Below, piece after piece: positions 20,374 to 53,508 of a DNA stretch of 64,000 nucleotides. The position numbers and the translations under genes were made by a program. The notes under the pieces were generated by a model, which saw nothing but the letters and a program-made list of their open reading frames with translations, had not been told where the DNA came from and did not search any database. How positions within the stretch are numbered: the first letter of the stretch is position 1; each line of letters opens with the position of its first letter. Source of the stretch: a virus. The DNA lies in the IMG/VR virus record IMGVR_UViG_3300009512_000010, positions 95,935-159,934 of that record; one strand, 5' to 3'.

Positions 20374-21355
20374 AACTTGTAATCTTAATTGCAGTCACTG
20401 TTTTACTTCTGGTATGAATGGGCGTAAGATCTATTTTGATCACGTGAAGACCGCAAATTGGTGTAACGAACTCGACACTGGCTCTAACCAGATCCATTTA
20501 GAGTACCATGGTGGTGAGCCTATGCTTGCGCCCATGGCACACCTACGAGAATTCCATGACATCACTAAAGCTCAATGGGGTGATCGTGCAACTCATGGTA
20601 TCACAACAAATCTTGTGTTTAAGCTTACCGAAGAGAAACTTGCATTCTTTAGTGAAATCATTACAGGTGGTAACATCGGCACCTCATGGGATCCTAATAT
20701 TCGTTTTACTAACGAACATCAAAGGAAGATGTGGGAAAATAATGTTAAGCAGTTGACAGGACTTGGGCATAGTGTCAAGTGCTTTATCTCTGTATCTAAG
20801 GATGTTATTAAACTACAACCGTTGGAGATTGCTGATTATATGGAGTCTCTTGGTGTTGCTGAGATCTCTTATGAACGACTTACCCATGATGGTAATGCCA
20901 CAATCAATACGGACATCTTTCCTCATAACTCTGAACTAGATGCTTGGTGGATGCTGATGCATGAACAAACTCAAGATCACCCTGTAGAAAACGGCTTTAT
21001 GGGATCCATCTACGACAAGTTCAACAAAGGGCAGTTCCAGATCGGCACATTCTGTCGTGATTGCGAACAAAAGATCCACACTATTAATGCAGACGGTACT
21101 GTCGCAGGCTGTCCTAACACCGCACCAACCATGCATTATGGTCATATAGATACACCAGCAAAGGAAGTAAGATTAAGTCCTAAGCGTATGGAGATCATAT
21201 CTTGTGAACAGCATGAACGTGATGAACGGTGTTACAAATGTCCAGTCTTTATGTATTGCCATTCTGACTGTCATCAGTTACAATGGATGGATGATGTGTG
21301 CCCTGCGCCTAAAACATTGATGATGAAGTTAGCGAAAGAGAAGAAATGGATTTAA
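20324..21355 (+). CDS. Radical SAM protein with SPASM domain (1)
   Basis: The 343-residue protein has the 4Fe-4S/SAM motif CNLNCSHC (C19, C23, C26) and the SAM-binding GGEP at 63-66. A Cys-rich C-terminal third (CRDCEQ, VAGCPN, CEQHERDERCYKCPVFMYC) is a SPASM-type auxiliary cluster domain, typical of peptide-modifying enzymes such as PqqE and anSME. The start overlaps the cupin gene by 50 bases and has only a weak ribosome site, so a slightly later non-ATG start is possible. Confidence 0.9.
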   Translation: MALTTQTHSVIYVKTTETCNLNCSHCFTSGMNGRKIYFDHVKTANWCNELDTGSNQIHLEYHGGEPMLAPMAHLREFHDITKAQWGDRATHGITTNLVFKLTEEKLAFFSEIITGGNIGTSWDPNIRFTNEHQRKMWENNVKQLTGLGHSVKCFISVSKDVIKLQPLEIADYMESLGVAEISYERLTHDGNATINTDIFPHNSELDAWWMLMHEQTQDHPVENGFMGSIYDKFNKGQFQIGTFCRDCEQKIHTINADGTVAGCPNTAPTMHYGHIDTPAKEVRLSPKRMEIISCEQHERDERCYKCPVFMYCHSDCHQLQWMDDVCPAPKTLMMKLAKEKKWI

Positions 21356-22383
21356 TCGTAAAGCCAACCGAAGCGTGTAACTTCAAGTGTACATTTTGCT
21401 CGTCAACAGATATCGATCCCAATGAGGTTGGTCTGTTAGACTTGAGCTATATCTATAGGTTCTTAGAAAGGTTTCCAGAGACTAACACAATTATTGTTAA
21501 TGGTGGTGACCCTCTTATGGTCAAGCCACAGTATTATCAAGATCTAATTGACCACCTTAATGAGCATGATTACCCAGCAAGCATTAGCTTTACGTCCAAC
21601 CTTTGGCCTTTCCTAATGAAACCTAAGAAGTGGTTACCCATCTTTCAGAACGAACGATTTGGTTGTGCCACATCATTTCAGTATGGTGGCGGTAGACTAA
21701 AAGGCGATTATTCAGAGTTCACAGAGGCAGACTTTTGGATGGTGTCTAATGCCATGTTGAAGCATACAGGTGAACGTCCAGATTTTATCGCAGTTATTAC
21801 AGAAGAGAATGAGCATCTCGCCATTAAGAATGTAGAACTAGCAAAAGAGATGGGCGTCGAGTGTAAGTTGAACTATGCTATGGCTTCTGGTGTACAGGGA
21901 TCTACGTATCAATTAAGCAAGATCTACGAAACATATCTTGAGATTTATGACCGTGGTCTAGCCGATCATGAGTTCAACACTAAGCAAATGATGAAACGTC
22001 TTGGGGGATCTTCTACATCATGCCCACAGAATAGAGCGTGTGATGAAGGTATCCGTGCATTTAACCCAGGAGGTGATTACTACTCTTGTGGTTCATTTGC
22101 AGATGATATGGATTATCCTATCGACTTCGAAACTGAGATGGCAGGAAAGTTGCAAACACCACTGCAACACGACCCCAACATTCAGACAATGAAGATGGCT
22201 TGTTACACATGCCCTATGTTTGAAATCTGCAATGGTTGTAAGAAAACTGTGCGTGATATGAAACGTGAAGGTACTGTTGAAGGTCATTGTAGGCAGATGA
22301 AAGCATTGGCACCTCGTATCCTTGCTACCAATAATATGAGTCCTGATGGAGTGACGCCCTATGTCGATGAATCTATCAATTAA
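21346..22383 (+). CDS. Radical SAM protein with SPASM domain (2)
   Basis: This is a 345-residue radical SAM enzyme: CNFKCTFC at C11, C15, C18; GGDP at 53-56; SPASM-like Cys in CPQNRACDEG, YYSCGSF and CYTCPMFEICNGC, plus a last Cys in GHCRQ. It overlaps the previous gene by 10 bases behind a GAAAGAGAAG site. It probably works on a peptide, from the SPASM architecture; the target is unknown. Confidence 0.9.
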   Translation: MDLIVKPTEACNFKCTFCSSTDIDPNEVGLLDLSYIYRFLERFPETNTIIVNGGDPLMVKPQYYQDLIDHLNEHDYPASISFTSNLWPFLMKPKKWLPIFQNERFGCATSFQYGGGRLKGDYSEFTEADFWMVSNAMLKHTGERPDFIAVITEENEHLAIKNVELAKEMGVECKLNYAMASGVQGSTYQLSKIYETYLEIYDRGLADHEFNTKQMMKRLGGSSTSCPQNRACDEGIRAFNPGGDYYSCGSFADDMDYPIDFETEMAGKLQTPLQHDPNIQTMKMACYTCPMFEICNGCKKTVRDMKREGTVEGHCRQMKALAPRILATNNMSPDGVTPYVDESIN

Positions 22384-23290
22384 CCCAACTTACTATTGTA
22401 ACTTCTCTTGCGACTTTTGTTACTTGACAAAGCAACAGTTAAATGATAGACACAAGATAAACCCAATGTGGTTACAACATTCTATGGGTCAAATAACAGA
22501 TCCTATAACTCATGTTGATTTATATGGCGGTGAGATTGGATTACTAACACCAGAGTATTATTATTCGATCAAAGAGGTGATTAGGAGATACTATGGTGGT
22601 AGTATCCACATCAACACAAATCTGTCAGCATTTCCAGACTTCTTCCGTGATGATGATGTTACCCTATCGGTATCTTATGACTTCCACGCAAGAGAGAAAG
22701 AACAGTTTGTTCTAAATAACATGATGAATGCTAATAAGGATCTTGCTGTCCTTATCCTTGCATCGCCTAAAGTATTGAAGATGGATGTGGAGTTTATGAT
22801 CTTCACTCTTAACATGGTTTCTAATGTCAAGTCGGTAGAGATCAAGCCTTACTCTATCAACCAAGCCAATGCATTTGATGTTACTCATAAAGACTTTGAG
22901 GACTTCGTTATTAGGTTTGATGAGGCTAAGACTAAGAAGAACTTTGACTTCCAAAACATACACAACATTTATAGAAGTATAGATAAAGAGTACAATGCCT
23001 TTTCCAATGACCACGTCTATATCACACCATCTGGTAAGTTTGGCGTATTGGAGTTTGATAAGCATGATAAAGAGTACTTCAAGGAGTATAGCACATATTA
23101 TGAATATAAACAATGGGCAGATAACGAAGCTGTTGATAATCTTAGCGACATTTGTCGTAGCTGTACCTATTTCGGTACATGTCTTACCGAGCACTATCGG
23201 TACGTATTGGATTTAGACAACAGTTGCAATGGATATAAAGGATTACTAGATTACTATGGAAAATTGGAAAGCGAGACAGAAGGCGTATAA
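22361..23290 (+). CDS. Radical SAM protein (3)
   Basis: This is a 309-residue enzyme with CNFSCDFC at C13, C17, C20, and YGGE at 55-58. The C-terminus has a shorter set of Cys (CRSCTYFGTC, then NSCNGYKG), resembling a twitch or reduced SPASM domain. It overlaps the previous gene by 23 bases, so the operon is tightly coupled. Confidence 0.88.
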   Translation: MSMNLSINPTYYCNFSCDFCYLTKQQLNDRHKINPMWLQHSMGQITDPITHVDLYGGEIGLLTPEYYYSIKEVIRRYYGGSIHINTNLSAFPDFFRDDDVTLSVSYDFHAREKEQFVLNNMMNANKDLAVLILASPKVLKMDVEFMIFTLNMVSNVKSVEIKPYSINQANAFDVTHKDFEDFVIRFDEAKTKKNFDFQNIHNIYRSIDKEYNAFSNDHVYITPSGKFGVLEFDKHDKEYFKEYSTYYEYKQWADNEAVDNLSDICRSCTYFGTCLTEHYRYVLDLDNSCNGYKGLLDYYGKLESETEGV

Positions 23291-23294
23291 TCAT

Positions 23295-23654
23295 ATGACA
23301 ACAAACCACCGTGACGATTTGACGGATGTTGATGTATTGAATAGGCCAGAATTTATTGTAGAAGATGCTTTGATGCACTTCGATAAGAGAGTGGATCAGT
23401 GGATCTACCCAGCGAAGTCGTTCTTCGTTGCAATCTGCTATGCCAATTGGATAGCCGAAGACTTTGGTGAGCAGTTCTATGATGTACTAAACTATAACGA
23501 ATTACTACCAGACGATCCACACTTCCTACCATATGAGAGAAGTAAAGAGATCTATGATGAGATCCTTTCTAAAGTTAATTTTGATAATACTAATGGTATG
23601 GTTCCAGATGTCTATGAGTATTACCAAGAGGAATTCATGATTGGACAACTTTGA
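23295..23654 (+). CDS. Hypothetical protein inside the radical SAM operon
   Basis: The product has 119 residues from the ATG at 23295, five bases after the previous stop; an ATG at 23256 in the same frame would add 13 residues. It is acidic with many aromatic residues (WIYPAKSFFVAICYANWIAE; PDDPHFLPYERSKEIYDEIL) and looks helical. No known family. It is sandwiched between radical SAM genes and could be a partner or substrate-recognition protein; there is no Cys-rich core region that would make it an obvious substrate. Confidence 0.7.
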   Translation: MTTNHRDDLTDVDVLNRPEFIVEDALMHFDKRVDQWIYPAKSFFVAICYANWIAEDFGEQFYDVLNYNELLPDDPHFLPYERSKEIYDEILSKVNFDNTNGMVPDVYEYYQEEFMIGQL

Positions 23655-24723
23655 CTTCACCAAACAGCTACTGGAATCTAAACGTCCAGACATAGCCGAG
23701 ATTGAGATGACACTCTTTGAGAACTGTCACCTCAACTGTTCTTTTTGTCACCACGACAAGAAGTCTACAGTAGGCTTGTCTCGTGAAGAGATCTTCTCCA
23801 AGATCCCTCTAGTAGAAGAGCATGTTATTAAGATGAAGAACCGTGCAGACGTTATTCAGATCAATATGCTTGGTGGAGAATTGTTTCAAGACCGAATATC
23901 TGAGTGGGCTTATGAGGTCTACTACGACTTCTTAGTTGAGATTAAGAAGATCTATGATGAACATAAGCAGAACATTAAAGTAGTTTGGGTAACATCCTTT
24001 CAGTTTAGTAAACGTGAGAGAGTTCAAAAACTACTTGATGATTTGAATGCAATAGACATTCCATCCTATATTATCTGTTCTTATGACTTTGATGGTAGAC
24101 CTGTCAAAGGACCTTATGGCAAGAACATAGAATACTTTGCTGATTATATCACATCTATTAATATGGTTGCAACCACTATTTCTATTAAAAAGTTTATGGC
24201 AGATGAGGACGAGTACTTTCACTATCTGTATAATAAGTTTGATAACTTCTACTTTGATGATTACATTCCTGATCGTGGTTATGACTATATGATCCCATCA
24301 GATAGTGAGTATCTTGAGTTCCTAAAGTTTGTGTATCATAACTATCCAGACATCAATCCTATCAAGGATCTGATCTATAACGAAACAAATCATATGCATT
24401 GCTTGGCTCTTAACAAGGTTACAATCTTTCCTGATAACTCTACATCAAACTGTAGATGGGATAGATATGACCAACGTGACTTCAACACGAAGTATGAGCC
24501 TAAAGATAATGCTGGTATGATGCAAGCTTATATGGATGAGAATGGTTGCTTGTCATGTAAGTGGTACAACAAGTGTGGCTTTAGATGTTATACACAATGG
24601 GATTGGAAGAACCGTGAACGAGATCTGCCCGACTGTATAATGCGCATGTGGTTTAACTACATGGACAAGACAGGACAAAACCAAATCACAGGATTTGATT
24701 ACGTGGGAACAAACACTCCGTAA
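23641..24723 (+). CDS. Radical SAM protein with SPASM domain (4)
   Basis: The 360-residue enzyme starts at a TTG behind AAGAGGAA; no ATG precedes the first Cys by a sensible distance except one at residue 23. The motif is CHLNCSFC (C29, C33, C36), with LGGE at 77-80. C-terminal Cys (CLALN, NCRWD, CLSCKWYNKCGFRCY, DCIMR) form a SPASM-like domain. It ends the plus-strand operon and its 3' end overlaps the opposing radical SAM gene by 38 bases. Confidence 0.88.
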   Translation: MDNFDFTKQLLESKRPDIAEIEMTLFENCHLNCSFCHHDKKSTVGLSREEIFSKIPLVEEHVIKMKNRADVIQINMLGGELFQDRISEWAYEVYYDFLVEIKKIYDEHKQNIKVVWVTSFQFSKRERVQKLLDDLNAIDIPSYIICSYDFDGRPVKGPYGKNIEYFADYITSINMVATTISIKKFMADEDEYFHYLYNKFDNFYFDDYIPDRGYDYMIPSDSEYLEFLKFVYHNYPDINPIKDLIYNETNHMHCLALNKVTIFPDNSTSNCRWDRYDQRDFNTKYEPKDNAGMMQAYMDENGCLSCKWYNKCGFRCYTQWDWKNRERDLPDCIMRMWFNYMDKTGQNQITGFDYVGTNTP

Positions 24724-25708: not shown

Positions 25709-26825
25709 GGTAATCCTCGTTATCGAATAGAGCAATAACATCTTTGTTTAATATACATTCAGATCTTCCCTCAAACATCGTATCCATAACTTTGGGTATC
25801 AATCTGTTGGAGCACACGTTGAGGTACTTACACGTTCCGCATTCTTTATTAGAACTATTTATTATCTGATCTGTAACGACTTGGTGTTTGTAATTTAAGA
25901 TACCTTCTACTGTATGTGTAGTGATCTCGAAGTCATCTTTATAGATCTGAGCATTCTCATAGATGAATGGTGACGCATATAGTTTGCCGTTGTGGATGTT
26001 CACCACCGCATAGTGAAATGCTTTGTGAGATAGATCCCCCTGTAAGAAGTGAAACTTGTTCTTAAAACGATTGACATCACTAGACAAGTTTGTCAACATA
26101 TCATTCCAAGCGAATAGTTTGTCTCCATGCTTGGTAGAATGGTTAAAGGATCTGACAACAGAGGGTAAGATTTCAATGACCGTGTCGTAGGTTTCACGTA
26201 TGTAGTCGATAGCTTCGTATAGCCTGTCTTCGATACCCTCTACAATGTTAGTTGCCATAGAGATCTCAAAGTCCAACGAACTCTCTTTGAAGTTCATCAC
26301 TCTGTTTCTCAATGCTTTCCTGTATCTTTTATCATCCAATACACGCACAAGATCTAAAGCAATCTGCACATCCCAAGACTCAACAACCTTACCAAGAGGA
26401 GACTTTTCGATAGCCTTGATCTTACCTAGAATATCATCTTCCGATAGAGACCCCATGATAGAACAGTTATGTTGAATGTTTCTATTACCTTCTGGTATCA
26501 TAGAGATGGCATCAGATAATCTGGCATTGTGTATGATTTCTTCTAGGTTTTCTGCACCATAGAAGTCTGTAGGTCCGATAACAATATCGTCTAACACGAC
26601 ATCAGTTCTACCATGTAATTCGTATGCCAGATTGTGAAACATCTTAATTGACTTGGGATTCCAATTACCTCTACGTTTAACAAAACAACCAGGACACATG
26701 TAAGAGCACCCTTCAAGTAATTCTAAAGTAACTTGGATCTTGTACTGCGTCATTGAGGATACTGAAGTAAACTCTTCTCCCACACCACCGTGCTTAACAA
26801 TGTCTTTCCAACTATTATTTAACAT
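25692..26825 (-). CDS. Radical SAM paralogue B of the IGPTD family
   Basis: The 377-residue protein has CSYMCPGC at C40, C44, C47, VIGPTDFYG at 82-90, and the C-terminal set CGTCKYLNVC, then ECILNKD. The start follows AAGGA by eight bases. It overlaps both neighbours by 11-17 bases. Residues after the first cluster read FVKRRGN, very like paralogue C, so B and C are probably the closest pair. Confidence 0.88.
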   Translation of the reverse strand: MLNNSWKDIVKHGGVGEEFTSVSSMTQYKIQVTLELLEGCSYMCPGCFVKRRGNWNPKSIKMFHNLAYELHGRTDVVLDDIVIGPTDFYGAENLEEIIHNARLSDAISMIPEGNRNIQHNCSIMGSLSEDDILGKIKAIEKSPLGKVVESWDVQIALDLVRVLDDKRYRKALRNRVMNFKESSLDFEISMATNIVEGIEDRLYEAIDYIRETYDTVIEILPSVVRSFNHSTKHGDKLFAWNDMLTNLSSDVNRFKNKFHFLQGDLSHKAFHYAVVNIHNGKLYASPFIYENAQIYKDDFEITTHTVEGILNYKHQVVTDQIINSSNKECGTCKYLNVCSNRLIPKVMDTMFEGRSECILNKDVIALFDNEDYHGNSY

Positions 26826-27978
26826 AGGAGATGTCCTTAATTCGTTCTAGTTCTGGATCGTCATCTGTTGTAACAAGAAACCTCTTACGATAACCCTTCT
26901 TATCGTTTTCAACAGAATAGTCATCCCACTGATACATCTTCTGAGCAGGTGCATTATAGTTATGTATATGTTCCATCATATTCTGCTTAGGAGCAATACA
27001 ACGATCAACTCCAAGGTAATCTCTGAGTAGAATAATCTTTCTATTGTAACAAGACATCATCAAGGGACAAGTTTCGCACTCTGTGCCCTTGACCCTTTCC
27101 AACTGAGATTGTACAATAGGAAGCACATCGTCAAAGTTATCCACTTTAAACATCTCATGGTACAATGCCATGTTTTCGTACATAAACGGCGAAATGAACC
27201 ATTCGCCCTTTTTATAGTTTAGTACGGTATAGTTCATGCCACCGTGTGAGTGGTCTACCATTATGTTATTTAATTCTGTTTCTTTATAAGCACTTAGCTC
27301 GTTAAAGAAGTCATTAAACTTGTCTAATGTATCTAATATTAGTTTAGGCTTGTGAGAACGTGAAACAGACGGTACAAAGTCTAATATCGTTTTAAAGCGT
27401 TCTATTGCACTTTTATGCAGTTTAACGTAGTCTAGGCCATAATCACGTATATTGACCACAAACGTATATGTCACTTCATGTTCTAGGTTTTTATCAATGT
27501 ACTCCAACATCTTGTGAATATGCTGTACATAATCCTCATCAAAGAACTTGTTAACATTCGTTGCGATACCAATTTCAATCTCAGTATCTATGTTAATATT
27601 ATTTGTTATGAAAGCAACCCATCGTGGAAGATCCCCATCAATCAGTGTGCTGACAAATGCAAGAATGGGTGAGTTCTCATTAATGATATCGACTAGAGAT
27701 GGCATGACCTCATAGAAGTTTTCGGACGCAAGAAAGTCTGTAGGTCCGATAAGGATCTCGTCAACCAAGATGCCTCTATCAGTTATGTCTCGTATGAAGT
27801 CTTTGGCTTTATGGATCTGATGTTCATCACTAGCATTACCTCTGCGATGCACAAAACATCCCGGACATTTGTGATGACAACCATCTAGGATATCAAGCTG
27901 AAGTTTAACCGCCGAGACTGGTTTAGTTTGCGTCTCTGTGGTTAGCTCGTAATATAAGTTGTTCTTAATTAACGGCAT
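26815..27978 (-). CDS. Radical SAM paralogue C of the IGPTD family
   Basis: The 387-residue protein has CHHKCPGC at C34, C38, C41, LIGPTDFL at 76-83, and the C-terminal set CETCPLMMSC and RCIAPKQ. It carries an extra 40-residue basic tail after the auxiliary cluster (QKMYQWDDYSVENDKKGYRK) that the paralogues lack. It overlaps paralogue D by 14 bases. Confidence 0.88.
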   Translation of the reverse strand: MPLIKNNLYYELTTETQTKPVSAVKLQLDILDGCHHKCPGCFVHRRGNASDEHQIHKAKDFIRDITDRGILVDEILIGPTDFLASENFYEVMPSLVDIINENSPILAFVSTLIDGDLPRWVAFITNNINIDTEIEIGIATNVNKFFDEDYVQHIHKMLEYIDKNLEHEVTYTFVVNIRDYGLDYVKLHKSAIERFKTILDFVPSVSRSHKPKLILDTLDKFNDFFNELSAYKETELNNIMVDHSHGGMNYTVLNYKKGEWFISPFMYENMALYHEMFKVDNFDDVLPIVQSQLERVKGTECETCPLMMSCYNRKIILLRDYLGVDRCIAPKQNMMEHIHNYNAPAQKMYQWDDYSVENDKKGYRKRFLVTTDDDPELERIKDISYVK

Positions 27979-28990
27979 GCATATATTCTTTCAAGGCAAC
28001 ACAAGTGTTCAACTTCCTTGACTTCATATACACGTGTATGTTTCTTTCTGCGCAACTCATTAGGTATTCGCATGTGTTACAATCGTCTACTGTCTTTGCA
28101 TACTCTAGGTTAGTGCCCAACCATTCCTGATCCATTGTAGTTTGAAACTCAGGTGTTCTCTGAATGATTGCGTCATATAAAAATGGATTGATGTATAATT
28201 TGCCGTTGTAGAAACTATAGTTCTGACAGCCATATCCATTAAACCTAGCATCAAAGAATGTGTATAAGTTCCTCCACTCATCATTTATCTTCTGCTTACG
28301 CAGATCTGCCCTAAACATATCAAGAAACTTATTGACCTTACCACGTGCATTCTTGTCTGTCAAGAAAGAAGGTGCGATGACTATGGGTGCGTTAAAGTCT
28401 TCCTTGACTTTGGCACACAGATCATTATATCCTATTCTGTCAAACAAATCAGGAGTGTAGTTAACTCTGAACTGAACAGATCCAATGGTAAACATCTTTA
28501 TGTTTTCAAGGAAGTTGGGGTCAAGGTCATCATCAAGATACGCCTCAACATCTAACACAATCTTAAAGTCGATATCTGGAATTCTATTGATGTTACGATA
28601 GATCTGCCAAATCATATCAAGTTTAGGCTTGACAACCTTTGGGTCTTGTAATAGTGTAGATGTAAATCCGACACCACTTATAGCATACAGGTCTGTCATC
28701 GATGGGTGTGTCATCACCTCATCAAAGTTCTGAGCATCAAAGATGTCAGTTGGACCTATAGTAATTTCATCTGGATAGAACTGTCCCTTACACAACTCAT
28801 CGTATAGAGTAGCCATGTGATCAGGTGATGTCAAGTTCTTTCTTGGGATAAAGCATCCGGGACACATCTGATCACAACCATGGAGAATATCCAAGTTGAT
28901 CTCTGTGCGTAGGAAATCGGTATTAACAGGGCTTATGCCATGAACGTAACGATAGTACCCTGCTTCTGTTGCATTAAGCTTTGTTATCAT
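27965..28990 (-). CDS. Radical SAM paralogue D of the IGPTD family
   Basis: The 341-residue protein has CDQMCPGC at C39, C43, C46, TIGPTDIFD at 77-85, and the C-terminal set CNTCEYLMSC and TCVALKEY. Start and end overlap the neighbours by 17 and 14 bases. The ribosome site is weak, consistent with coupled translation from the preceding gene. Confidence 0.88.
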   Translation of the reverse strand: MITKLNATEAGYYRYVHGISPVNTDFLRTEINLDILHGCDQMCPGCFIPRKNLTSPDHMATLYDELCKGQFYPDEITIGPTDIFDAQNFDEVMTHPSMTDLYAISGVGFTSTLLQDPKVVKPKLDMIWQIYRNINRIPDIDFKIVLDVEAYLDDDLDPNFLENIKMFTIGSVQFRVNYTPDLFDRIGYNDLCAKVKEDFNAPIVIAPSFLTDKNARGKVNKFLDMFRADLRKQKINDEWRNLYTFFDARFNGYGCQNYSFYNGKLYINPFLYDAIIQRTPEFQTTMDQEWLGTNLEYAKTVDDCNTCEYLMSCAERNIHVYMKSRKLNTCVALKEYMHAVN

Positions 28991-30851: not shown

Positions 30852-32030
30852 TTACGCTCCGTCTTTCATTTTGTATTTAGTTGCATCATCATTCCATGTA
30901 AAGTCGAATGGATTATAGTGTTTCAATGTTTCTTTAGGTAATACACACCCATCAATATTGAGACTATCTTGAGCCTCGAATACCAATCTACTTGCACAAG
31001 CCATAGCAAACTGACAGTCTGCACAATCTTTTACCTTACTAGACTTATTTATACCCTTTGTAATCAGTTCGTTCTTACGTTGTAAGATCTCTTCGAATGT
31101 AAGTCCTGTTACGTCTAGGTTCTTATTAGTTATAAAGAACGCTTGTTCGTGAAGCATTACATTCAAGTGTGTCGTAGGTCCGTTCTCTCCTGGAACAATA
31201 GTAATGCCCACAAAGTTGATTGAGTTACAGTAGAGATTAGCCATAGACATAACAGTCTCACTAGCATTGTTCTCATCAATAACCGACTCAAGGAACTTAT
31301 TCCACGCAAACAAGTTGTTACGTTGAATGATTTGATTAGGTGCCCTAGCGAATGCAGGGTTCATTTCCATAATAGTGCCGAAGTCGTTTACAGAACGATC
31401 AATCAGCCTATTGTATTTCTCTTTGTCAATCTGCTTACCGACAACGTTAGAAGCCTGTAATGTCCAAGACCAATCCATCATCTTTGGAGTTTCGTTCTTA
31501 AAGAACTCTATTTTCTCCATAACTCTGTTATAGTAATCGTCATCATCCAACATCTCGTTAATACGACCAATCGGCATAATGAATTCGATAACCATGTCAC
31601 GTCTATACGCATCTAGGTCATCCAGAATAGCAAAGATCTCTCTGACCTTTTCCATTGAAGCATTGTCGAACTTAGCTGGAGACGCAATACGTGCATTAGT
31701 GTGTTCTCTCATTATAGCTTGAACAGTTGGGTTTGTCAATACTTCTTTTGTATTCTTAGCAGAAAATAGATCTGTAGGTCCGATAACAAACTCTCTTAGG
31801 TTACCACCCACACGTAATACACCATCAGCAAGTTCCTTAGCACGATCAATGATCTGTTGATTGCTTACAGGATCAATTGCTTTGTCAACGAAACATCCAA
31901 GACAGCCCTGTTCACATCCAGCCAGAACTTCCATCTGAATAAGAACATCGAACTTTGTTGCATCAGATGGTGCCAGACTTTCGGGTCCTGAGTATCTCAT
32001 CTGCTTACAATATGATTGTTGCATTGTCAT
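30852..32030 (-). CDS. Radical SAM paralogue E of the IGPTD family
   Basis: The 392 residues start at the ATG one base after the stop of the Cys-tail gene, with GAGGAAG before it. The motif is CEQGCLGC (C39, C43, C46), with FVIGPTDLFS at 81-90 and a C-terminal set CADCQFAMAC, then GCVLPKE. It is the paralogue directly coupled to the two candidate substrate genes, which makes it the first choice for the enzyme acting on their tails. Confidence 0.9.
   Translation of the reverse strand: MTMQQSYCKQMRYSGPESLAPSDATKFDVLIQMEVLAGCEQGCLGCFVDKAIDPVSNQQIIDRAKELADGVLRVGGNLREFVIGPTDLFSAKNTKEVLTNPTVQAIMREHTNARIASPAKFDNASMEKVREIFAILDDLDAYRRDMVIEFIMPIGRINEMLDDDDYYNRVMEKIEFFKNETPKMMDWSWTLQASNVVGKQIDKEKYNRLIDRSVNDFGTIMEMNPAFARAPNQIIQRNNLFAWNKFLESVIDENNASETVMSMANLYCNSINFVGITIVPGENGPTTHLNVMLHEQAFFITNKNLDVTGLTFEEILQRKNELITKGINKSSKVKDCADCQFAMACASRLVFEAQDSLNIDGCVLPKETLKHYNPFDFTWNDDATKYKMKDGA
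31046..31053 (-). promoter_or_regulatory. Possible internal late promoter
   Basis: TATAAATA in the context GGTATAAATAAG on the minus strand, inside radical SAM paralogue E and about 200 bases before the 367-residue gene. The sequence matches the consensus, but a chance match within coding DNA cannot be excluded. Confidence 0.35.
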
Positions 32031-32031
32031 G

Positions 32032-32418
32032 TTATCGTCTTCCTCTTGATGTATGACAGCTGGTGTGACAGCTTGAATGGCATAATACTGCTGAGATAGA
32101 TCTGTTAGTAAGTCTATCTTCAATGAGGTCTACGGTTCTTCGCACTCCGTCCTCTAATGTGTCTACGATGTCTTGTGAATATATCCTACTACCTGCGGAG
32201 ACTCCAGCATCAATATAGTTATCAAATAGAGAGTCAGCCGCACCTGTATATTCGAACCTATGTGTCGTAGTATTAGATCCTGTTCCACCCATAGCAGTGG
32301 GATTGTTATTCTGATATGCTGTAGTTGTTATAGTAATAGTTTTGTCAAACGTTCTTAACTTACCACCTGCGTAAGTTTGCATGTAGCTATCTATACTATC
32401 TCTGGTTAAATTGCCCAT
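32032..32418 (-). CDS. Cys-tail protein 2, candidate modified virion peptide
   Basis: The 128-residue protein is paralogous to the upstream gene. Shared blocks: LRTFDKTITITTTAY (about residues 21-35), RFEYTGAADS (about 53-62), AGSRIYSQDIVDT (about 75-87), and the C-terminus CHSSCHTSCHTSRGRR (113-128). The body looks like a small beta fibre protein with a helical stretch. The tail has three Cys, each followed by His and each His followed by Xaa-Ser, then a basic end. Its start overlaps the previous stop (TAATG) and one base separates it from radical SAM paralogue E. It may be a substrate of that enzyme or a metal-binding tip. Confidence 0.85.
   Translation of the reverse strand: MGNLTRDSIDSYMQTYAGGKLRTFDKTITITTTAYQNNNPTAMGGTGSNTTTHRFEYTGAADSLFDNYIDAGVSAGSRIYSQDIVDTLEDGVRRTVDLIEDRLTNRSISAVLCHSSCHTSCHTSRGRR
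32035..32082 (-). repeat. Cys-His-Xaa-Ser tail coding region, copy 2
   Basis: This encodes CHSSCHTSCHTSRGRR. The same 16 residues are encoded at 32421-32468 with different codons at nine positions and no amino acid change. Confidence 0.9.
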
Positions 32419-32804
32419 TATCTACGACCTCTTGATGTGTGACAACTAGTGTGACAAGAGCTATGACATAACAATGCTGAAATGGATCTGTCAGTGATAC
32501 GAGATTCAACCTGATCTACTGTTCTTTGCATAACACTATTAATTGAGTCGATAACATCTTGACTGTACATTCGACTTCCTGTGTATATTCCACCATCCAA
32601 ATCGTTATTATAAGTTGAGTCAGCCGCACCTGTATATTCAAAGCGTTGGTTAAAGCCAGCCGAGCTTTGCGGTCCCGCTTGAGTCTGCGACACTGTTTGT
32701 AATGTATATGCAGTTACAGTAAACGTCATCGTTTTATCAAACGTCCTTAACTGGCTTCCAGCCTGTGCCTGTAAACTAGTGTTATTTTGTGCATAGGTTG
32801 GCAT
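32418..32804 (-). CDS. Cys-tail protein 1, candidate modified virion peptide
   Basis: The 128 residues include LRTFDKTMTFTVTAY, RFEYTGAADS, GSRMYSQDVIDS and the same C-terminus CHSSCHTSCHTSRGRR, about half identical to its neighbour overall. There is no signal peptide or membrane segment and no Cys outside the tail. The ATG directly follows the stop of the collagen-like fibre gene (TAAATG), and its own stop overlaps the start of copy 2. It is therefore co-translated with fibre genes on one side and radical SAM genes on the other. Confidence 0.85.
   Translation of the reverse strand: MPTYAQNNTSLQAQAGSQLRTFDKTMTFTVTAYTLQTVSQTQAGPQSSAGFNQRFEYTGAADSTYNNDLDGGIYTGSRMYSQDVIDSINSVMQRTVDQVESRITDRSISALLCHSSCHTSCHTSRGRR
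32421..32468 (-). repeat. Cys-His-Xaa-Ser tail coding region, copy 1
   Basis: This encodes CHSSCHTSCHTSRGRR, identical in protein to 32035-32082 but different at many third and Ser/Arg codon positions. Confidence 0.9.
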
Positions 32805-33878
32805 TTATACTTTAACCTCAACTAGCCCTTCACCATCCTCTAGTGCCACACCCACAAAGTTCAAGAAGTTCATGCGCATTGCGGCAGTCGTATCAGCTGG
32901 AAGTGCTTTACATTTACCATTATCATCTGCTACTATATAGTCGCCTTTTTGAGCAGTACCATTTATCTTACAAGGGATACGTCCTTTAAGCGCAATGAAA
33001 GGCCATAGAGGATCCTCCATGTTATCTTCATTAACGTTCATTCGAACACCCGGACGTGTAGAGATAATGCCAGCGATAGCCATACCCTTTTTGTATAGAG
33101 TTACCTCTTTTTCGCCACCAACAGCCAACAGATCTCCATGTTCATATCCTCTATCGGCTAAATATTTCTCCGCTAAATCCGACCAGTTTGCAGACGTTGC
33201 TGTACCATTAAATGTACCATCATTAGCAATATATGATGTATCTGTACCATTTCTTCTAAACTGAACAATTCTGTCTGATGATTCGTCTGCAACAATATAC
33301 CATCTATTTGAGTGGTACTGAATTTTACCTTTTGTGCCCGGATCACCTGTCCAGTTAGATGACGCATTGGAGAAAAGACCACCGTTGGTGATATCAAGGT
33401 TACCACCACCGAACTGACCAATCTCACCTTTTTGTCCTTTAGATCCTGTGGCTCCAACTTCTCCCTTTTGTCCTTTTGCTCCAGTTACACCAACTTCGCC
33501 TTTTTGACCTTTTGCTCCAGTTACACCAACTTCGCCTTTTTGACCTTTTTGACCTTTTTCACCAGTAAGTCCAACTTCGCCCTTTTGTCCTTTTTGACCC
33601 TTATCTCCAGTAAGTCCAACTTCACCTTTTTGACCCTTTTGACCTTTAACGCCAACTTCGCCTTTTTGTCCGATCTCGCCTTTTTGACCTTTTGCGCCAG
33701 TGTCTCCAGTCTGTCCTTTTTGTCCTTTTTCGCCCTTTTGTCCCTTTGGGCCAGTTGGAGCATCGGTAAAGGTAGTGGCTCTCCACACACCTTTTGCACT
33801 TTCAAATGTCCACGTGACATTGTTAGCGGTGTGGGTTGCGCCATTCGATGGCGATGATGGGAAATTAATTGCCGCCAT
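32805..33878 (-). CDS. Collagen-like fibre protein (1)
   Basis: This is a 357-residue fibre. Residues 1-42 form a globular start (FPSSPSNGATHTANNVTWTF). Residues 43-156 are 38 uninterrupted Gly-X-Y triplets (GQK, GEK, GQK, GEV and similar) of which 22 have Lys at Y, always followed by Gly. The C-terminal 200 residues contain SDLAEKYLADRGYEHGD and GIISTRPGVRMN, a domain frequent in marine T4-like phage fibres. With almost no Pro in the triplets, stability would have to come from Lys chemistry or from modification, and X-Lys-Gly is the known lysyl hydroxylase target. The PLOD-like enzyme at 17000-18928 is the likely modifier. Confidence 0.92.
   Translation of the reverse strand: MAAINFPSSPSNGATHTANNVTWTFESAKGVWRATTFTDAPTGPKGQKGEKGQKGQTGDTGAKGQKGEIGQKGEVGVKGQKGQKGEVGLTGDKGQKGQKGEVGLTGEKGQKGQKGEVGVTGAKGQKGEVGVTGAKGQKGEVGATGSKGQKGEIGQFGGGNLDITNGGLFSNASSNWTGDPGTKGKIQYHSNRWYIVADESSDRIVQFRRNGTDTSYIANDGTFNGTATSANWSDLAEKYLADRGYEHGDLLAVGGEKEVTLYKKGMAIAGIISTRPGVRMNVNEDNMEDPLWPFIALKGRIPCKINGTAQKGDYIVADDNGKCKALPADTTAAMRMNFLNFVGVALEDGEGLVEVKV
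33411..33752 (-). repeat. Gly-X-Y coding repeat in collagen-like gene 1
   Basis: This holds 38 triplet codons dominated by GGx-CAA-AAA-type units, with near-identical 18-36-base blocks repeated several times. Such runs are prone to slippage and recombination, so length is likely to vary between relatives. Confidence 0.85.
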
Positions 33879-33881
33879 GGA

Positions 33882-35582
33882 TTATGCGCCTCCTGCGCCA
33901 TATAGAGTTTTCAATGCAGTTCCACCTGAGTTGTAAATAACAAAGGATACGACAGATTTTAATTCATTTGAGCCAACAGCATCATCTGCAAGCTTATCTT
34001 GTATTACGGAATTATTTGCTAAATGTTCTGAATCTATGGAATACGCCGCATAGTGTTCGGAGTTAATTGTATCATCAGCAATCTTAGCACCAGTTACGGC
34101 ATCATTAGCAAGTTTAGCTGTAGAAATAGCACCATCAGAAACAACCGAATTATTAAATTGCACCCATTGACTAGATGTACCATCATCGTAGTAGATATAT
34201 AGGGATCCTGTTTCATCGTCCCACCACAAGTCACCGTCTACTGCACTACCTGGTGCTGTGGTGTTTGTAATGGCTTCGTTGCCTTCACCCTTTTGGCCTT
34301 GAGTACCAGTTCCACCCTTTTGACCAACTTCACCCTTTTGGCCTTTGTCACCAGTTTGACCCTTTTGGCCCTTAGTACCAGACGCACCGTTACCATCAGC
34401 ACCAATCTCGCCTTTTTGACCCTTTTGACCCTTGCTTCCAGTTTCGCCCTTTTGACCCTTAGCTCCGTTAGTTCCAGCTTCGCCTTTTTGACCCTTGTCT
34501 CCAGCACCACCAGTAGAACCCTTTACGCCAACTTCACCTTTTTGGCCTTTTGATCCGTTAGCTCCACCTTCGCCTTTTTGACCCTTGGCTCCATCACCAC
34601 CTGCACCACCAGTCTGTCCCTTTTGGCCTTTTTGACCTGCGAGACCTGCGTTGGTAATAGTATGCTTTTCCCATGTGCCAGCGGACACATCGAATACAGG
34701 AATAATATCAGTTCCTACCGCATCAGTACCTGTTGTGAATGCTGTTAAAGCAGATCCAACATTAGCCGCATCTGTGACATCGGCATTAGCTTCCACATTG
34801 TCTAGCTTACCACCGTCCGTCGAAACATCTCTTCCATCAACAGTACCTGTTACAGTAATGTTTCTAATGCCAGAAATGTCACCGCTATCATCTTTCGAGA
34901 TAACCGTACCAGATGTTGGCAAAGTAAGTGCAGTTGTTCCGCCTGTAGTAAGTGTCGTTGCATACGCACCTGATGTCGTAAACGAACCACCGAATGCTAG
35001 GTTGCCCAATGCACTTAATGTTCTATTGGCATTGCCAACATCGAAAGTTAGTGTTCTATCAGCACTTGCATTTACAGAACTGTTAGCGGCAAGTATTAGT
35101 TCATATGAAGCAACAGTATTATCTCTAAGAGAGAATGTGCTAATATCTGTAATAGATCCGCCAATTGCACCAACACCAGTAATGCTTGGTGTTGTAAGTG
35201 TCTTGTTAGTAAAAGTTTCTGTACCAGTAAGTGTTGCAAAGGAATTGCCGCCACTGAGTGCGGCGTTCCACTGACCAATAGTACCAGTCAGTGAGTTGTT
35301 TGTTAGGTTAATACTTTTGTTAGTAAGAGTTTGAGTGCCACTTAATGTAGCCGCAACTGCCGAGTCTAATCTTAGTAAGACATCAGCATCGTTAGTTCCT
35401 GAGTTAAGTACAGTAATGCCAGCATTAGACCCTTTGGGGCCAATGGTGCCAACGAAGTCACCCATCGTGCCAGAGTCCATAGCAATGTTAGTGTCTCTGA
35501 TAATAGCAGTAACTGCCGCAGAGTCAACGAGTGCCTGTAGACCTAGACTGATGTTTAGATGATCACTTAGTTTAACAACCAT
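33882..35582 (-). CDS. Collagen-like fibre protein (2)
   Basis: This is a 566-residue fibre. Residues 1-312 are a beta-repeat shaft with phage-fibre signatures (TLTNKSINLTNN, ETFTNKTLTTPSITGVG). Residues 313-435 are Gly-X-Y triplets with one interruption near residue 399, with Lys again mainly at Y. The C-terminal part has DGDLWWDDETGSLYIYYDDG, then LANDAVTGAKIADDTI-type repeats, ending ELKSVVSFVIYNSGGTALKT and LYGAGGA, an end shared with the fibre at 60020-61441. The probable trimeric tail fibre is a second candidate substrate for the PLOD-like enzyme. Confidence 0.92.
   Translation of the reverse strand: MVVKLSDHLNISLGLQALVDSAAVTAIIRDTNIAMDSGTMGDFVGTIGPKGSNAGITVLNSGTNDADVLLRLDSAVAATLSGTQTLTNKSINLTNNSLTGTIGQWNAALSGGNSFATLTGTETFTNKTLTTPSITGVGAIGGSITDISTFSLRDNTVASYELILAANSSVNASADRTLTFDVGNANRTLSALGNLAFGGSFTTSGAYATTLTTGGTTALTLPTSGTVISKDDSGDISGIRNITVTGTVDGRDVSTDGGKLDNVEANADVTDAANVGSALTAFTTGTDAVGTDIIPVFDVSAGTWEKHTITNAGLAGQKGQKGQTGGAGGDGAKGQKGEGGANGSKGQKGEVGVKGSTGGAGDKGQKGEAGTNGAKGQKGETGSKGQKGQKGEIGADGNGASGTKGQKGQTGDKGQKGEVGQKGGTGTQGQKGEGNEAITNTTAPGSAVDGDLWWDDETGSLYIYYDDGTSSQWVQFNNSVVSDGAISTAKLANDAVTGAKIADDTINSEHYAAYSIDSEHLANNSVIQDKLADDAVGSNELKSVVSFVIYNSGGTALKTLYGAGGA
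34278..34646 (-). repeat. Gly-X-Y coding repeat in collagen-like gene 2
   Basis: About 41 triplets, residues 313-435, with repeated GQK-GEx units. It is similar in codon pattern to the first run but less regular. Confidence 0.85.
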
Positions 35583-44237: not shown

Positions 44238-44700
44238 TTTCAATCCTTGTTGGGTCTACTAGAAAGTAGTTATATGTATATCTTGTTTCGTCGCTAGACT
44301 TATAATCATGCCACGTCACACCTGTTTCTCCACAGAATATCATTAGACGATTAGGTTTCCATTCAATGGTCTCTTGTTTGCCATCGATATAAAATGTCGT
44401 TCCATGGTTTTTCTCTGGACTGAGATATATGATTGCTGACATGATCTTAAACTCTGCTTCATCATGCATCTTGTGGGTAAAGTTTGGGACTGTGGTTGCG
44501 GTGTGTATAAACCTAGCCAATTCTCTATAACCACGTTTCTTACCAAAGTAATTTGCAAACTGCGCAATCTCTGGTGTTGGATCATAGTCGTACCAATGCC
44601 TACTAACACTACCGTCTTGCTTGGTAGATCTTGCATCAAAGAGTATAGCATTGTATGTTTCTTCTGATAAGAAGTTATCTCTTATAAGTATTTTTGTCAT
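44203..44700 (-). CDS. 2-oxoglutarate/Fe(II) oxygenase-like protein
   Basis: This 165-residue enzyme resembles prolyl 4-hydroxylase-type oxygenases. HKMHDEAEFKIMSAIIYLS (about 76-94) carries the HxE/D ligands and the first core strand; LMIFCGETGVTWHDY has the distal His; ETRYTYNYFLV has the Arg for 2-oxoglutarate. It overlaps the upstream radical SAM gene by four bases. The substrate may be a peptide or a sugar; not determined. Confidence 0.8.
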   Translation of the reverse strand: MTKILIRDNFLSEETYNAILFDARSTKQDGSVSRHWYDYDPTPEIAQFANYFGKKRGYRELARFIHTATTVPNFTHKMHDEAEFKIMSAIIYLSPEKNHGTTFYIDGKQETIEWKPNRLMIFCGETGVTWHDYKSSDETRYTYNYFLVDPTRIENEAYKDHCIRV

Positions 44701-45641
44701 ATTCTATATTTCTCCATTGTGAAAGTTGAGCCAGTTAGTGTATTGTAATCAGCATCAAAGTTAGACCACACCAAAGCATCAGGTGCATCATATAACATGT
44801 CACAGTTCTTACAGTATTCTATAGAGTCGAAGTCATGGAACTCGTGCGCTCTTCTTAATTCATTATACTTCTCTCCATGCCAAATATCCATGATAGACTC
44901 TTCGGATAGATGACCAAGAACCGCTTTACTATCTTGACCTAGAACCATACAACAAGGTACAACCGCACCTGTCTTTTTATCATTCCCCCCTGCTCTTACA
45001 ATGAGATCTGGCGAGAATGGTCTGCCACAACTGCGCTTCTTCTTACCCTCACGCCAATCAACACCCAACTGTCCCGACCAATTGTGCATCTTCCAAATCG
45101 ACGCTTTAATACCAGGAACGTGATTAATCCAATTCTCACGGTATTGACGTACTTCTTCTGCTATGTTATTGTTGTCTAGGATGAGTGAATAAGATCCAAG
45201 GTTTCCACCATATTCTATTGCGGCATTGGCATTGTCCATTACCTGATAGAAAGCATCTTTGCTCATATTCTCTTCGTAGGTTTTCTGATCGTAACCAGTG
45301 ACTGAGACACGTGCAAAGTGCATACCCGCATCAATAGTCTTTTTCATTAAATCGTTCTTAAACCAAAAGCCATTAGTGATGAACGACATCTTAAACCCAC
45401 GATCAGATCCAGCCTTAACAAAGTCTGGTAATCTTTTGTTCATGGTAGGTTCTCCCGAACCCTCAAGATAGATCTCCTCACACTCGCCAATATCAACCAA
45501 TTGATCTAAGGTATTAATGAACTGTTGATATGACATCATCCTTTTAAAGGACTTCTCTCTACCATCGTCAAAAGAGTGTGGGCAGAACGTACAACTGTAG
45601 TTGCACGAGCCACATATCTCTATCACTGCTTTTTTAATCAT
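44697..45641 (-). CDS. Radical SAM-SPASM protein (minus strand, island B)
   Basis: The 314-residue enzyme has CNYSCTFC at C13, C17, C20 and GSGEP at 61-65. A SPASM domain follows: CGRPFSP, VPCCMVLG, and EYCKNCDML. The order IVRAGGN..VVPCCMVLGQD..GHL is the usual SPASM layout. It is led by a late promoter at 45668-45675 and transcribed with the oxygenase and the glycosyltransferase. Confidence 0.92.
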   Translation of the reverse strand: MIKKAVIEICGSCNYSCTFCPHSFDDGREKSFKRMMSYQQFINTLDQLVDIGECEEIYLEGSGEPTMNKRLPDFVKAGSDRGFKMSFITNGFWFKNDLMKKTIDAGMHFARVSVTGYDQKTYEENMSKDAFYQVMDNANAAIEYGGNLGSYSLILDNNNIAEEVRQYRENWINHVPGIKASIWKMHNWSGQLGVDWREGKKKRSCGRPFSPDLIVRAGGNDKKTGAVVPCCMVLGQDSKAVLGHLSEESIMDIWHGEKYNELRRAHEFHDFDSIEYCKNCDMLYDAPDALVWSNFDADYNTLTGSTFTMEKYRI

Positions 45642-45643
45642 GT

Positions 45644-45651
45644 TATAAATA
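45644..45651 (+). promoter_or_regulatory. T4-type late promoter, plus-strand island B
   Basis: TATAAATA on the plus strand, 36 bases before the nitroreductase start. It indicates that the plus-strand sugar and radical SAM island is expressed late. Confidence 0.75.
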
Positions 45652-45667
45652 CCCCTGAATACTTCAC

Positions 45668-45675
45668 TATTTATA
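45668..45675 (-). promoter_or_regulatory. T4-type late promoter for the minus-strand radical SAM gene
   Basis: TATAAATA on the minus strand, 27 bases before the start at 45641. It faces the plus-strand late promoter, with start points predicted to overlap by a few bases. Confidence 0.7.
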
Positions 45676-45686
45676 GGGAAATTAAA

Positions 45687-46238
45687 ATGACTATAGAAGA
45701 ACTCTTTACAACAAGAAGGCAGATAAGATCCTTTGATAGTGAGAAGATCCCATCAAGAGAACTTATAGAAGATCTTTTGCACAAGACCTTTTCCTTGACG
45801 CCATCCAAACAGAACATCTTTCCATATTCTGTTCACGTTATAGGTCCTGAGCATTATGCCTTGAAGGATGAACTATATCTATTAAGTCAACACTTGGGTC
45901 AAACATCAAACACTCAATCACTTGCTCCATATAACCTATTATTCACTCCAAGACTTGCTAAACCGAATAGTTTTAGTAACGAAATAGCTCAAGTCAACAT
46001 TGAAGTGGGCATGTTCAGCGCAATACTTACTGGACTATGTGTTGAGCAAGGACTATCGGTTGGATATATGTTATGTTATAAAGATGATGTGAGCTATTGG
46101 ACTAACTTTCCTAATGATGGTTTGAGGGTCGAATTCACCATGCATATAGGTTATGCTGATGATGCTGTTAGACCGTTTATCTCAGAATCTAAACCAGAAT
46201 ATGATGAGGTAATAAATTGGTATAAGGCGATAAAATGA
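45687..46238 (+). CDS. Nitroreductase-family flavoprotein
   Basis: The 183 residues start at the ATG after AGGGAA. The opening MTIEELFTTRRQIRSFDSEK is the FMN phosphate-binding RRSxRxF-type motif of the family, and LTPSKQNIFPYSVHVI follows as the second flavin-binding segment; VNIEVGMFSAILTGLCVEQG is the dimer helix. The substrate could be a modified residue or a sugar intermediate. Its stop overlaps the next start (ATGA). Confidence 0.82.
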   Translation: MTIEELFTTRRQIRSFDSEKIPSRELIEDLLHKTFSLTPSKQNIFPYSVHVIGPEHYALKDELYLLSQHLGQTSNTQSLAPYNLLFTPRLAKPNSFSNEIAQVNIEVGMFSAILTGLCVEQGLSVGYMLCYKDDVSYWTNFPNDGLRVEFTMHIGYADDAVRPFISESKPEYDEVINWYKAIK

Positions 46239-46966
46239 GAATTACACATGCTAACCAGACGATAGAGTTTTTTACGGATTCGTCTCTTCCTAGTATTCCC
46301 AAACATATTGGATTGTCTGTATCTGGGGGTCTCGATTCGGCTTCCCTTTTATTCCTAATATGTAAACACTATCCACAGATTAAAGTGTCTCCTATGATCG
46401 GAATAGATGCTTATGCAAAGTTTGATGCTCTGTGTGCATTTGACATTATTGAGTGGATGAAAGATAGATTTCCTAATCATAACATACTAGACAATCAATC
46501 ATTTACCTTTGATCATTGGGATCCGTATTGGATAGAGAAAGCTCAAGATCTACACGATAGGGGTGTGGCGACAGCACTACAGGCTGAAGGAACCTCTAAG
46601 AACTTGCAAATGAGGAATGGACTACAGACGATCAAGGATGAGATAAAGTATGAATGGCATGTTACAGGAACAACTGCAAACCCCCCTGATGATTATATGA
46701 AGAAGCATGGGTTCTATCATAAGGCTGAACATGTCAGAGATGAACCGCATAATAGAAAGACTTTTGTGAGAGGTCTATATACTCCATACATAAATGTAAA
46801 CAAGAAATTTGTGGCTGGTGTGTACAAAGATAACGATTTAATGGATGAGTTATATCCATACACAAGCTCGTGTGTGGGGATGCCAGACAAGACAGACTAT
46901 GGAACTGTTGCTTGCGGAACTTGCTTCTGGTGTCATGAAAAGAAATGGGGATTTGAAGATGATTAA
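46235..46966 (+). CDS. PP-loop ATP pyrophosphatase, QueC-like (1)
   Basis: The 243-residue protein has the PP-loop SGGLDSAS at 30-37, which activates a carboxyl or carbonyl group with ATP. The C-terminus has CVGMPDK then CGTCFWCHEKKWGF, a zinc-knuckle pattern like QueC (7-cyano-7-deazaguanine synthase). No QueD or QueE is present in the window, so a role in 7-deazaguanine synthesis is not supported here; amide or nitrile formation in island B chemistry is equally possible. Confidence 0.8.
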   Translation: MRITHANQTIEFFTDSSLPSIPKHIGLSVSGGLDSASLLFLICKHYPQIKVSPMIGIDAYAKFDALCAFDIIEWMKDRFPNHNILDNQSFTFDHWDPYWIEKAQDLHDRGVATALQAEGTSKNLQMRNGLQTIKDEIKYEWHVTGTTANPPDDYMKKHGFYHKAEHVRDEPHNRKTFVRGLYTPYINVNKKFVAGVYKDNDLMDELYPYTSSCVGMPDKTDYGTVACGTCFWCHEKKWGFEDD

Positions 46967-47690
46967 ATACAACAATATAGAACTAGATCTATTCTCACGT
47001 GGAGTTCCAGACAAGGTTATGCTATCATTGTCTGGTGGACTTGACTCGGCGTCCTTACTTTATATCATATGTAAGGAGTATCCCCAAATGGAAATCATTC
47101 CATACACTGGTAAGGATAAATATGCTCCATTTGATTTCTTATCCGCAACTATGGTCATTCAGTGGATGCAAGATAAGTTTCCCGATAACAATATTAAGGA
47201 ACACGAATGGTTTGAATTTGATGTTCAAGATCCTGTTCAGCGTAAAAGAGCGGAAGACGAGTGGGAGAATGAAAAGGTATTGGTTGGTGGTAAAAGAGTT
47301 GAAAGGTGTAGCACAATAAATGGTCTAGCCAAGATCCTAATGATTAGAGAGTTTACTCATTCTGTTTGGGATAAGCACAAAAACCCTATGATTGTGACTG
47401 GTATGACTGGCAACCCATCAGTTGAGGAAATGAAGAAACATGGGTTCTATGATGTTCGTGAGAAACGAAGGGATGATGGTAAGGTTGCTAAGGAATATGG
47501 ATTTAACTATCAACCATTTGTCAACGTAGACAAGAAGTTTGTTGCCGATATATATCGAAGTAATGATATCATGGATCTCTATGAAGTAACTTCATCGTGC
47601 ATTGGTAGTGCTAAAAATACTAATTTTCATACCGAACCGTGTGGCGTATGCTTCTGGTGTCATGAAAAGAAGTGGGCATTTGAGTGTTAA
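46959..47690 (+). CDS. PP-loop ATP pyrophosphatase, QueC-like (2)
   Basis: The 243-residue paralogue of the previous gene shares the PP-loop SGGLDSAS (25-32), KKHGFY in the middle, VNVDKKFVA, and CIGS...CGVCFWCHEKKWAF at the end. Both copies keep all motifs, so neither looks decayed. The ATG overlaps the previous stop. A tandem pair suggests two related substrates or a heterodimer. Confidence 0.8.
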   Translation: MIKYNNIELDLFSRGVPDKVMLSLSGGLDSASLLYIICKEYPQMEIIPYTGKDKYAPFDFLSATMVIQWMQDKFPDNNIKEHEWFEFDVQDPVQRKRAEDEWENEKVLVGGKRVERCSTINGLAKILMIREFTHSVWDKHKNPMIVTGMTGNPSVEEMKKHGFYDVREKRRDDGKVAKEYGFNYQPFVNVDKKFVADIYRSNDIMDLYEVTSSCIGSAKNTNFHTEPCGVCFWCHEKKWAFEC

Positions 47691-53507: not shown

Positions 53508-53508
53508 A

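Follow-up and report, generated by a model that had tools for sequence, protein, structure and literature searches.

Two adjacent tail fibre genes of a marine phage carry collagen-like runs in which all lysines stand in the Y position of the Gly-X-Y triplet. They lie in a 64,000-base stretch of DNA (the window, bases 95935–159934 of the 159,934-base IMG/VR virus record IMGVR_UViG_3300009512_000010), and the locus raises the question whether this placement reflects modification of the lysines, stability of the triple helix or both, as a preliminary description of the sequence had proposed. Lysine at Y was found to be an ordinary collagen preference; the element linked to modification is a KGQKG module, in which two successive triplets carry Lys and Gln stands at X. 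The fibre lysines probably sit at Y within such modules as substrates of a fused enzyme encoded at 17000–18928 of the window (minus strand), for which hydroxylation and glycosylation of lysine are predicted.

Lysine placement in the collagen runs

T4-type portal, sheath, tail tube, terminase and neck proteins are encoded in the window, and the portal has its best named relative in Phage C48C1 (Kyanoviridae, 67.7% identity). The open reading frame (ORF) of fibre 1 (32805–33878, 357 amino acids) comprises an N-terminal part, a collagen run (33402–33752) and a C-terminal domain; that of fibre 2 (33882–35582, 566 amino acids) contains the runs a (34386–34646, 29 triplets) and b (34281–34379, 11 triplets), all on the minus strand. 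Both fibres match PHROG tail fibre families (fibre 1 best with phrog_6320, 5e-26; fibre 2 with phrog_892, tail fibre, 2e-16), and both match the collagen triple-helix repeat (PF01391, 3.5e-19 and 1.3e-11) with scores of 68.7 and 44.5 bits, above the Pfam cut-off of 27.2.

The fibre 1 run contains 39 triplets (38 without the terminal GGG), and the 22 lysines previously counted at Y in 38 triplets were confirmed. The Y position is further occupied by Thr (7) and Val (6), the X position by Gln (15) and Glu (10), but never by Lys. Fibre 2 shows the same bias, as had been stated, with 14 and 6 lysines at Y in runs a and b and neither Lys at X nor Pro. Pooled over the 79 triplets of the three runs, 42 of 42 lysines are at Y, X is chiefly Gln and Glu, and a single Pro (in fibre 1) bears out the reported near absence of this residue. 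Lys makes up 16–19% of the residues within the runs compared to 3–5% elsewhere in the fibres. The chance of such a distribution with X and Y equally probable is 2^-42, a value that overstates the case because the repeats share their origin by duplication. The 25 Gly-Gln-Lys (GQK) triplets of the window are encoded by six distinct nine-base words; therefore, one recent DNA repeat was ruled out as the source of the bias.

Two other claims of the preliminary description call for correction. X-Lys-Gly had been put forward as the recognition unit of animal lysyl hydroxylases. The lysines do precede Gly, but Gly follows a Y-Lys in any collagen, and the unit is therefore uninformative as an additional signal. 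Charge pairs of the type Lys-Gly-Glu, suggested to stabilise the helix, are present, but account for a minority of the lysines, as Lys-Gly is followed by Glu in 16 of 42 cases and by Gln in 24 (Ser and Gly once each).

For comparison, two samples of viral contigs were collected. Sample A was selected by 15 GG pairs at nine-base spacing, which fixes Gly only (120 contigs, 80 listed), and sample B by one or more GQK within a stretch of eight triplets (120 contigs, 80 listed, five of them common to A), giving 235 distinct loci. Among the 38 contigs of sample A with at least five Lys, 18 had at least 90% of them at Y, four at X, and 16 were mixed. Contigs with at least five Lys, fewer than three GQK and no enzyme seen, which are often fragments, lacked Lys at X in 29 of 51 cases (pooled, 75 Lys at X and 503 at Y; median share of Lys followed by Gly-Asp or Gly-Glu, KG[DE], 0.89). 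Where at least 3 kb downstream were present and no fused enzyme was found, X-Lys was absent in 17 of 24 contigs. With at least three GQK and no enzyme seen (41 contigs, runs often at contig ends), 20 Lys were at X and 2325 at Y, with a median KG[DE] share of 31%. The 25 contigs with a glycosyltransferase-lysyl hydroxylase (GT-LH) enzyme and at least five scorable Lys had none at X and 781 at Y, and a median KG[DE] share of 0.36.

The preliminary description had read the Y bias as selected for modification, stability or both and had named its occurrence in many phages lacking the enzyme as the finding that would speak against this. Since Lys at Y is common where no enzyme was seen, the bias alone is no evidence of modification, and it was discarded as a sign of the enzyme. 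Collagens of E. coli prophages likewise favour Lys or Arg at Y, according to excerpts of PMC3368898. The EPclP tail fibres described there resemble the window fibres in having a collagen run with Lys at Y, but are Pro-rich at X with GPK as the commonest triplet, and the same excerpts mention no modifying enzyme, whereas the window fibres nearly lack Pro and carry KGQKG modules.

Domains of the predicted lysine-modifying enzyme

The gene at 17000–18928 encodes a protein of 642 amino acids predicted to be a fused GT25, PLOD-type glucosyltransferase and lysyl hydroxylase on the basis of phrog_61 (3.4e-107), Pfam, matches to human LH3 and COLGALT1, a structural model and folds in the PDB. The PLOD-like gene to which the preliminary description alluded is real, with three collagen-lysine-type domains in one protein. 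Pfam assigned GT_PLOD (PF25342, 1.3e-45) and Glyco_transf_25 (PF01755, 1.2e-23), and a 2-oxoglutarate (2OG)-Fe(II) oxygenase weakly. The best sequence matches among solved structures were LH3 (3e-34, glucosyltransferase and hydroxylase parts) and COLGALT1 (approximately 3e-18, GT25 part). Conservation was assessed in an alignment of 19 enzyme relatives forming 11 clusters at 60% identity, one of which (L017) ends before H615.

The COLGALT-like GT25 domain (residues 1 to about 205; 18314–18928) shows a GT25 fold with an acidic metal motif, on the basis of PF01755, the COLGALT1 fold match and the invariance of E93 and D95 (19/19), the acidic residues expected to bind the metal. The PLOD-type glucosyltransferase domain (about residues 215–446; 17591–18286) is assigned by PF25342 and by equivalents of residues essential in LH3. 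W256, K269, D290, Y292, D293, E319, W323, D368, D369 and N423, invariant in 19/19 sequences, would correspond to LH3 W75, K89, D112, Y114, D115, E141, W145, D190, D191 and N255, as mapped by eye from the sequence alignment with LH3; D112 and D115 are taken here to form the DxxD motif. The roles of W75, Y114, the DxxD motif, E141, W145, D190, D191 and N255 in LH3 are given in the consulted sections of PMC10342707. The lysyl hydroxylase-type 2OG-Fe(II) domain (about residues 455–642; 17003–17566) matches LH3 and carries an HxD...H iron triad, with H568 and D570 in 19/19 sequences and H615 in 18/18 reaching that region. An AlphaFold2 model had a mean pLDDT (predicted local distance difference test) of 86.9 and a pTM (predicted template modelling score) of 0.71, with uncertain placement of the domains relative to each other. 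It matched the LH3 glucosyltransferase at 2.2 Å over 228 columns, COLGALT1 at 3.2 Å and the mimivirus L230 hydroxylase at 1.9 Å over 172 columns.

LH3 (PLOD3), a lysyl hydroxylase and galactosylhydroxylysyl glucosyltransferase, thus resembles the phage enzyme in both domains by sequence and fold, with catalytic residues corresponding one to one; the phage enzyme differs in its N-terminal GT25 domain, in that no central accessory domain was recognised and in having Lys in place of the 2OG-contacting Arg. The C-terminal half of COLGALT1, a GT25 collagen galactosyltransferase, is matched by residues 5–194, but the human protein is separate and longer, whereas the phage has one GT25 domain fused to a hydroxylase. 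Among the viral collagen-lysine enzymes L230, R699 and R655 of mimivirus, to which fold matches were also found, L230 hydroxylates and glucosylates and R699 glucosylates galactosyl-hydroxylysine, as stated in excerpts of PMC9546862. In that giant virus of amoebae the activities are spread over several genes, whereas the tailed phage joins three domains in a single protein.

The label of phrog_61 ("2OG-Fe(II) oxygenase"), a family that includes the window enzyme, covers the oxygenase part only. The S-CAM9 and CRP-6 genes are annotated as hypothetical proteins, while UniProt already gives a PLOD-like name to a phage protein ("procollagen-lysine 5-dioxygenase [uncultured Caudovirales phage]"). 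In a literature search that covered listings, the beginnings of abstracts and some passages, no publication joining phages, collagen and lysyl hydroxylase was seen. Prokaryotic collagens are in most cases neither hydroxylated nor glycosylated, according to a passage of a review (PMC8968730).

The KGQKG module and its association with the enzyme

When at least 3 kb of sequence followed the collagen gene, a fused GT-LH gene was found in 19 of 26 loci with at least five GQK triplets versus 1 of 65 with fewer (0/21 with one to four, 1/44 with none). In the positive loci it is located 0.5 to 4.2 kb downstream of the collagen gene on the same strand. Counted by KGQK modules, in loci that either have an enzyme or extend 3 kb downstream, the fused gene is present in 24 of 33 with at least two modules (three at contig level) versus 1 of 62 with fewer, and 24 of 25 enzyme-positive contigs contain at least two modules. 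Of the Lys-rich loci (at least 15% Y-Lys), 22/22 enzyme-positive and 9/23 enzyme-negative ones contain modules. In sample A, an enzyme with GT_PLOD was detected in 2/4 contigs with at least five GQK and in 0/116 others. The contig-level GT_PLOD test was positive in 1 of 80 contigs from A and in 13 of another 77 from B; it covered two of the other 40 A contigs (L130 and L137, tested with B), and B contigs beyond L250 were covered by phrog_61 (most) or by the local scan only.

In 33 hand-chosen enzyme-bearing loci (the enzyme-positive L274 and L111 left out), the triplet before a GQK has Lys at Y in 457 of 567 cases, whereas Lys occupies only 28% of the Y positions. KGQK pairs hold 73% of all Lys there, and the next X is chiefly Glu (265) or Gln (223). 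The filler between modules varies (NTGSTG, PTGPTG, ATGATG) while the modules persist. KGQKG exceeds the ordinary collagen rule: its first Lys has no acidic partner, and it travels with collagen-lysine enzymes. The interpretation as modification, stability or both is partly supported. Charge pairing explains the lysines of KGD and KGE without an enzyme, and KGQK modules accompany the fused enzyme, while the Y bias alone indicates neither.

Three architectures occur beside GQK collagens: GT25-GT_PLOD-LH, GT4-GT25-LH (739–754 amino acids in two contigs, near the collagen gene, by Pfam) and GT4-LH. The last one is found, with 565 amino acids, just after the collagen gene of a 178-kb contig (G148) that had appeared to be a counterexample (GQK collagen, no GT_PLOD). 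GT_PLOD was rejected as sole enzyme marker, several GQK-rich contigs without it carrying GT4-GT25-LH or GT4-LH. Phrog_61 alone was of little use, because cyanophages that lack the fused enzyme have other 2OG oxygenases, which its oxygenase part also matches.

Out of 50,697 phage records, 11 encode the enzyme: S-CAM9 (four), S-PRM1 (two), S-8S53, S-8S55, S-8S56, CRP-6 and Marine virus AG-345-L05; the enzyme type of contig L200 had no match at 1e-10 among named phages. In all four examined (CRP-6, S-CAM9, S-PRM1 and S-8S53), the enzyme gene is preceded, at a distance of a few genes, by a tail fibre or unnamed ORF containing a KGQKG collagen with 11–16 GQK and no Lys at X; the 26 lysines of CRP-6 all lie within 13 KGQK pairs. 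None of 12 portal relatives hand-chosen from 2,381 matches was among the enzyme records, and ten had no PF01391 match. The remaining two have no GQK (ACG-2014f, 3 Y-Lys in the 119 triplets of the stretch read; MA10, 1 in 39).

Two bacterial entries were also observed. A 1.13-Mb contig of Kaistia terrae encodes a GT_PLOD-LH protein without GT25 (L387, 7917–9251) approximately 7 kb from a collagen run; with only one GQK, this run speaks neither for nor against the module-enzyme tie. A contig filed under a Neomarinimicrobiota metagenome-assembled genome (L386) carries enzyme and KGQKG collagen, one of the runs nearly matching that in viral contig L130, and is probably a phage contig binned into that genome.

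Proposed modification, alternatives and neighbouring genes

We infer the following course of reactions. The C-terminal 2OG-Fe(II) domain would convert Y-Lys of the unfolded chain to hydroxylysine, the GT25 domain would attach the first sugar (galactose, if it acts like COLGALT1) and the PLOD-type domain the second (glucose, if it acts like LH3). Trimerisation of the chains into a triple-helical shaft would follow, resulting in a sugar-coated fibre, perhaps with a benefit in protection, hydration, stiffness or interaction with the host surface. We further lean towards the view, held with less confidence than the assignment of the substrate itself, that tailed phages glycosylate hydroxylysine in their own collagen fibres by a self-contained system, with several enzyme architectures assembled independently and with KGQKG as a modular modification tag free to be positioned and repeated along the shaft, and that an animal-type modification takes place in bacterial cells during assembly.

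Several observations weigh against the proposed role. The window enzyme is encoded on the same strand as the fibres but approximately 14 kb downstream, not adjacent to them. Fused enzyme was absent from the available stretch in 7 of 26 GQK-rich loci (six, and hence 20/26 positive, if L188 is counted, whose GT_PLOD gene is elsewhere in the contig) and anywhere in the contigs L262 (35 kb) and L272 (38 kb). Conversely, L274 has the enzyme but Lys of the KGD/KGE type and two GQK, and in L111 a GT25-LH fusion accompanies a collagen whose roughly 800 triplets contain about eight Lys. Fisher's p for GQK-rich versus GQK-poor loci (6.6e-13) is too small because the loci are related to one another. Finally, the residue taken as equivalent to the Arg that binds 2OG in LH3 is Lys627 in 18/18 sequences. 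In prolyl 4-hydroxylases, Lys instead of Arg binds 2OG; in the GT4-LH and GT4-GT25-LH types an Arg adjoins that Lys (GKRYI).

It is unlikely that the lysines follow a triple-helix rule only, with a preference for Y and cross-chain pairing with Glu or Asp in the absence of hydroxyproline, and that the enzyme acts elsewhere. KGE and KGD pairs strongly raise the melting temperature, according to parts of PMC7824840, fibre 1 offers ten Glu at X, and frequent Y-Lys with a high KG[DE] share characterises the GQK-poor contigs in which no enzyme was seen. The window lysines preceding Gly-Gln, however, form no salt bridge, the KG[DE] share is low in enzyme-positive contigs, and GQK richness tracks the enzyme. 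Less probable still is a modification of the fibre at Thr, Pro, Asp or Lys outside the modules, with KGQKG as a trimer-assembly or register motif. The L111 enzyme adjoins a Lys-poor, Pro/Ile-rich collagen, and additional stand-alone 2OG oxygenases stand beside many enzymes, but the domains match the lysine-specific LH3, COLGALT1, L230 and R699, and Lys is the residue that tracks the enzyme. Least probable, by a small margin, is the joint spread of both genes among related phages in one marine tail-fibre cassette, the enzyme not acting on the KGQKG lysines: fibre and enzyme genes are neighbours, many sequences are homologous and the three large named enzyme genomes examined are all Kyanoviridae, but the 11 enzyme clusters and three distinct architectures, in which different glycosyltransferases on the LH domain accompany the same motif (the best evidence against mere lineage), the occurrence in CRP-6, a Roseobacter phage of 45 kb that differs from the T4-like ones, and the free change of filler between constant modules argue against it.

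If the fibre lysines are indeed substrates of the fused enzyme, lysine hydroxylation and two-sugar chemistry would be combined in one tailed-phage protein with a readable target motif, providing a simple bacterial system for the study and use of collagen lysine glycosylation. This would also explain part of phrog_61, a phage family known only as oxygenase, and add a fibre modification likely relevant to host recognition. The cultured phages S-CAM9, S-PRM1 and CRP-6 make the prediction testable now.

Directly upstream of the enzyme gene, a separate 2OG-Fe(II) oxygenase is encoded (18954–19514, minus strand; phrog_81, 4e-27; PF13759, 8e-15); two stand-alone genes of this kind likewise precede the enzyme in S-CAM9, S-PRM1 and S-8S53. 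The GT25-LH fusion of L111 (3352–5736) directly follows its nearly Lys-free collagen gene. About eleven radical-SAM (S-adenosylmethionine) or radical-SAM-like genes are located in the window at 20324–24723 (plus strand), 26815–28990, 30852–32123 and 44697–45641 (minus) and 50704–53233 (plus), two of these calls being based on a Cys motif recognised by eye alone. Two of the genes are nearest to the maturases DynA and DarE of ribosomally synthesised and post-translationally modified peptides, though far below the cut-offs. Genes encoding nitroreductase-like, QueC-like, DegT aminotransferase, carbamoyltransferase and GT8 glycosyltransferase proteins (45576–58592, plus strand) perhaps serve sugar or nucleotide modification. 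Two tandem ORFs of 128 amino acids each (32418–32804 and 32032–32418, minus strand) had no match in Pfam, NCBIfam or named phages. They share the C-terminus ISA[LV]LCHSSCHTSCHTSRGRR, which is exact in the relatives G008 and G021, lie next to genes of the radical-SAM-like type and resemble substrates for peptide modification carried on a virion protein.

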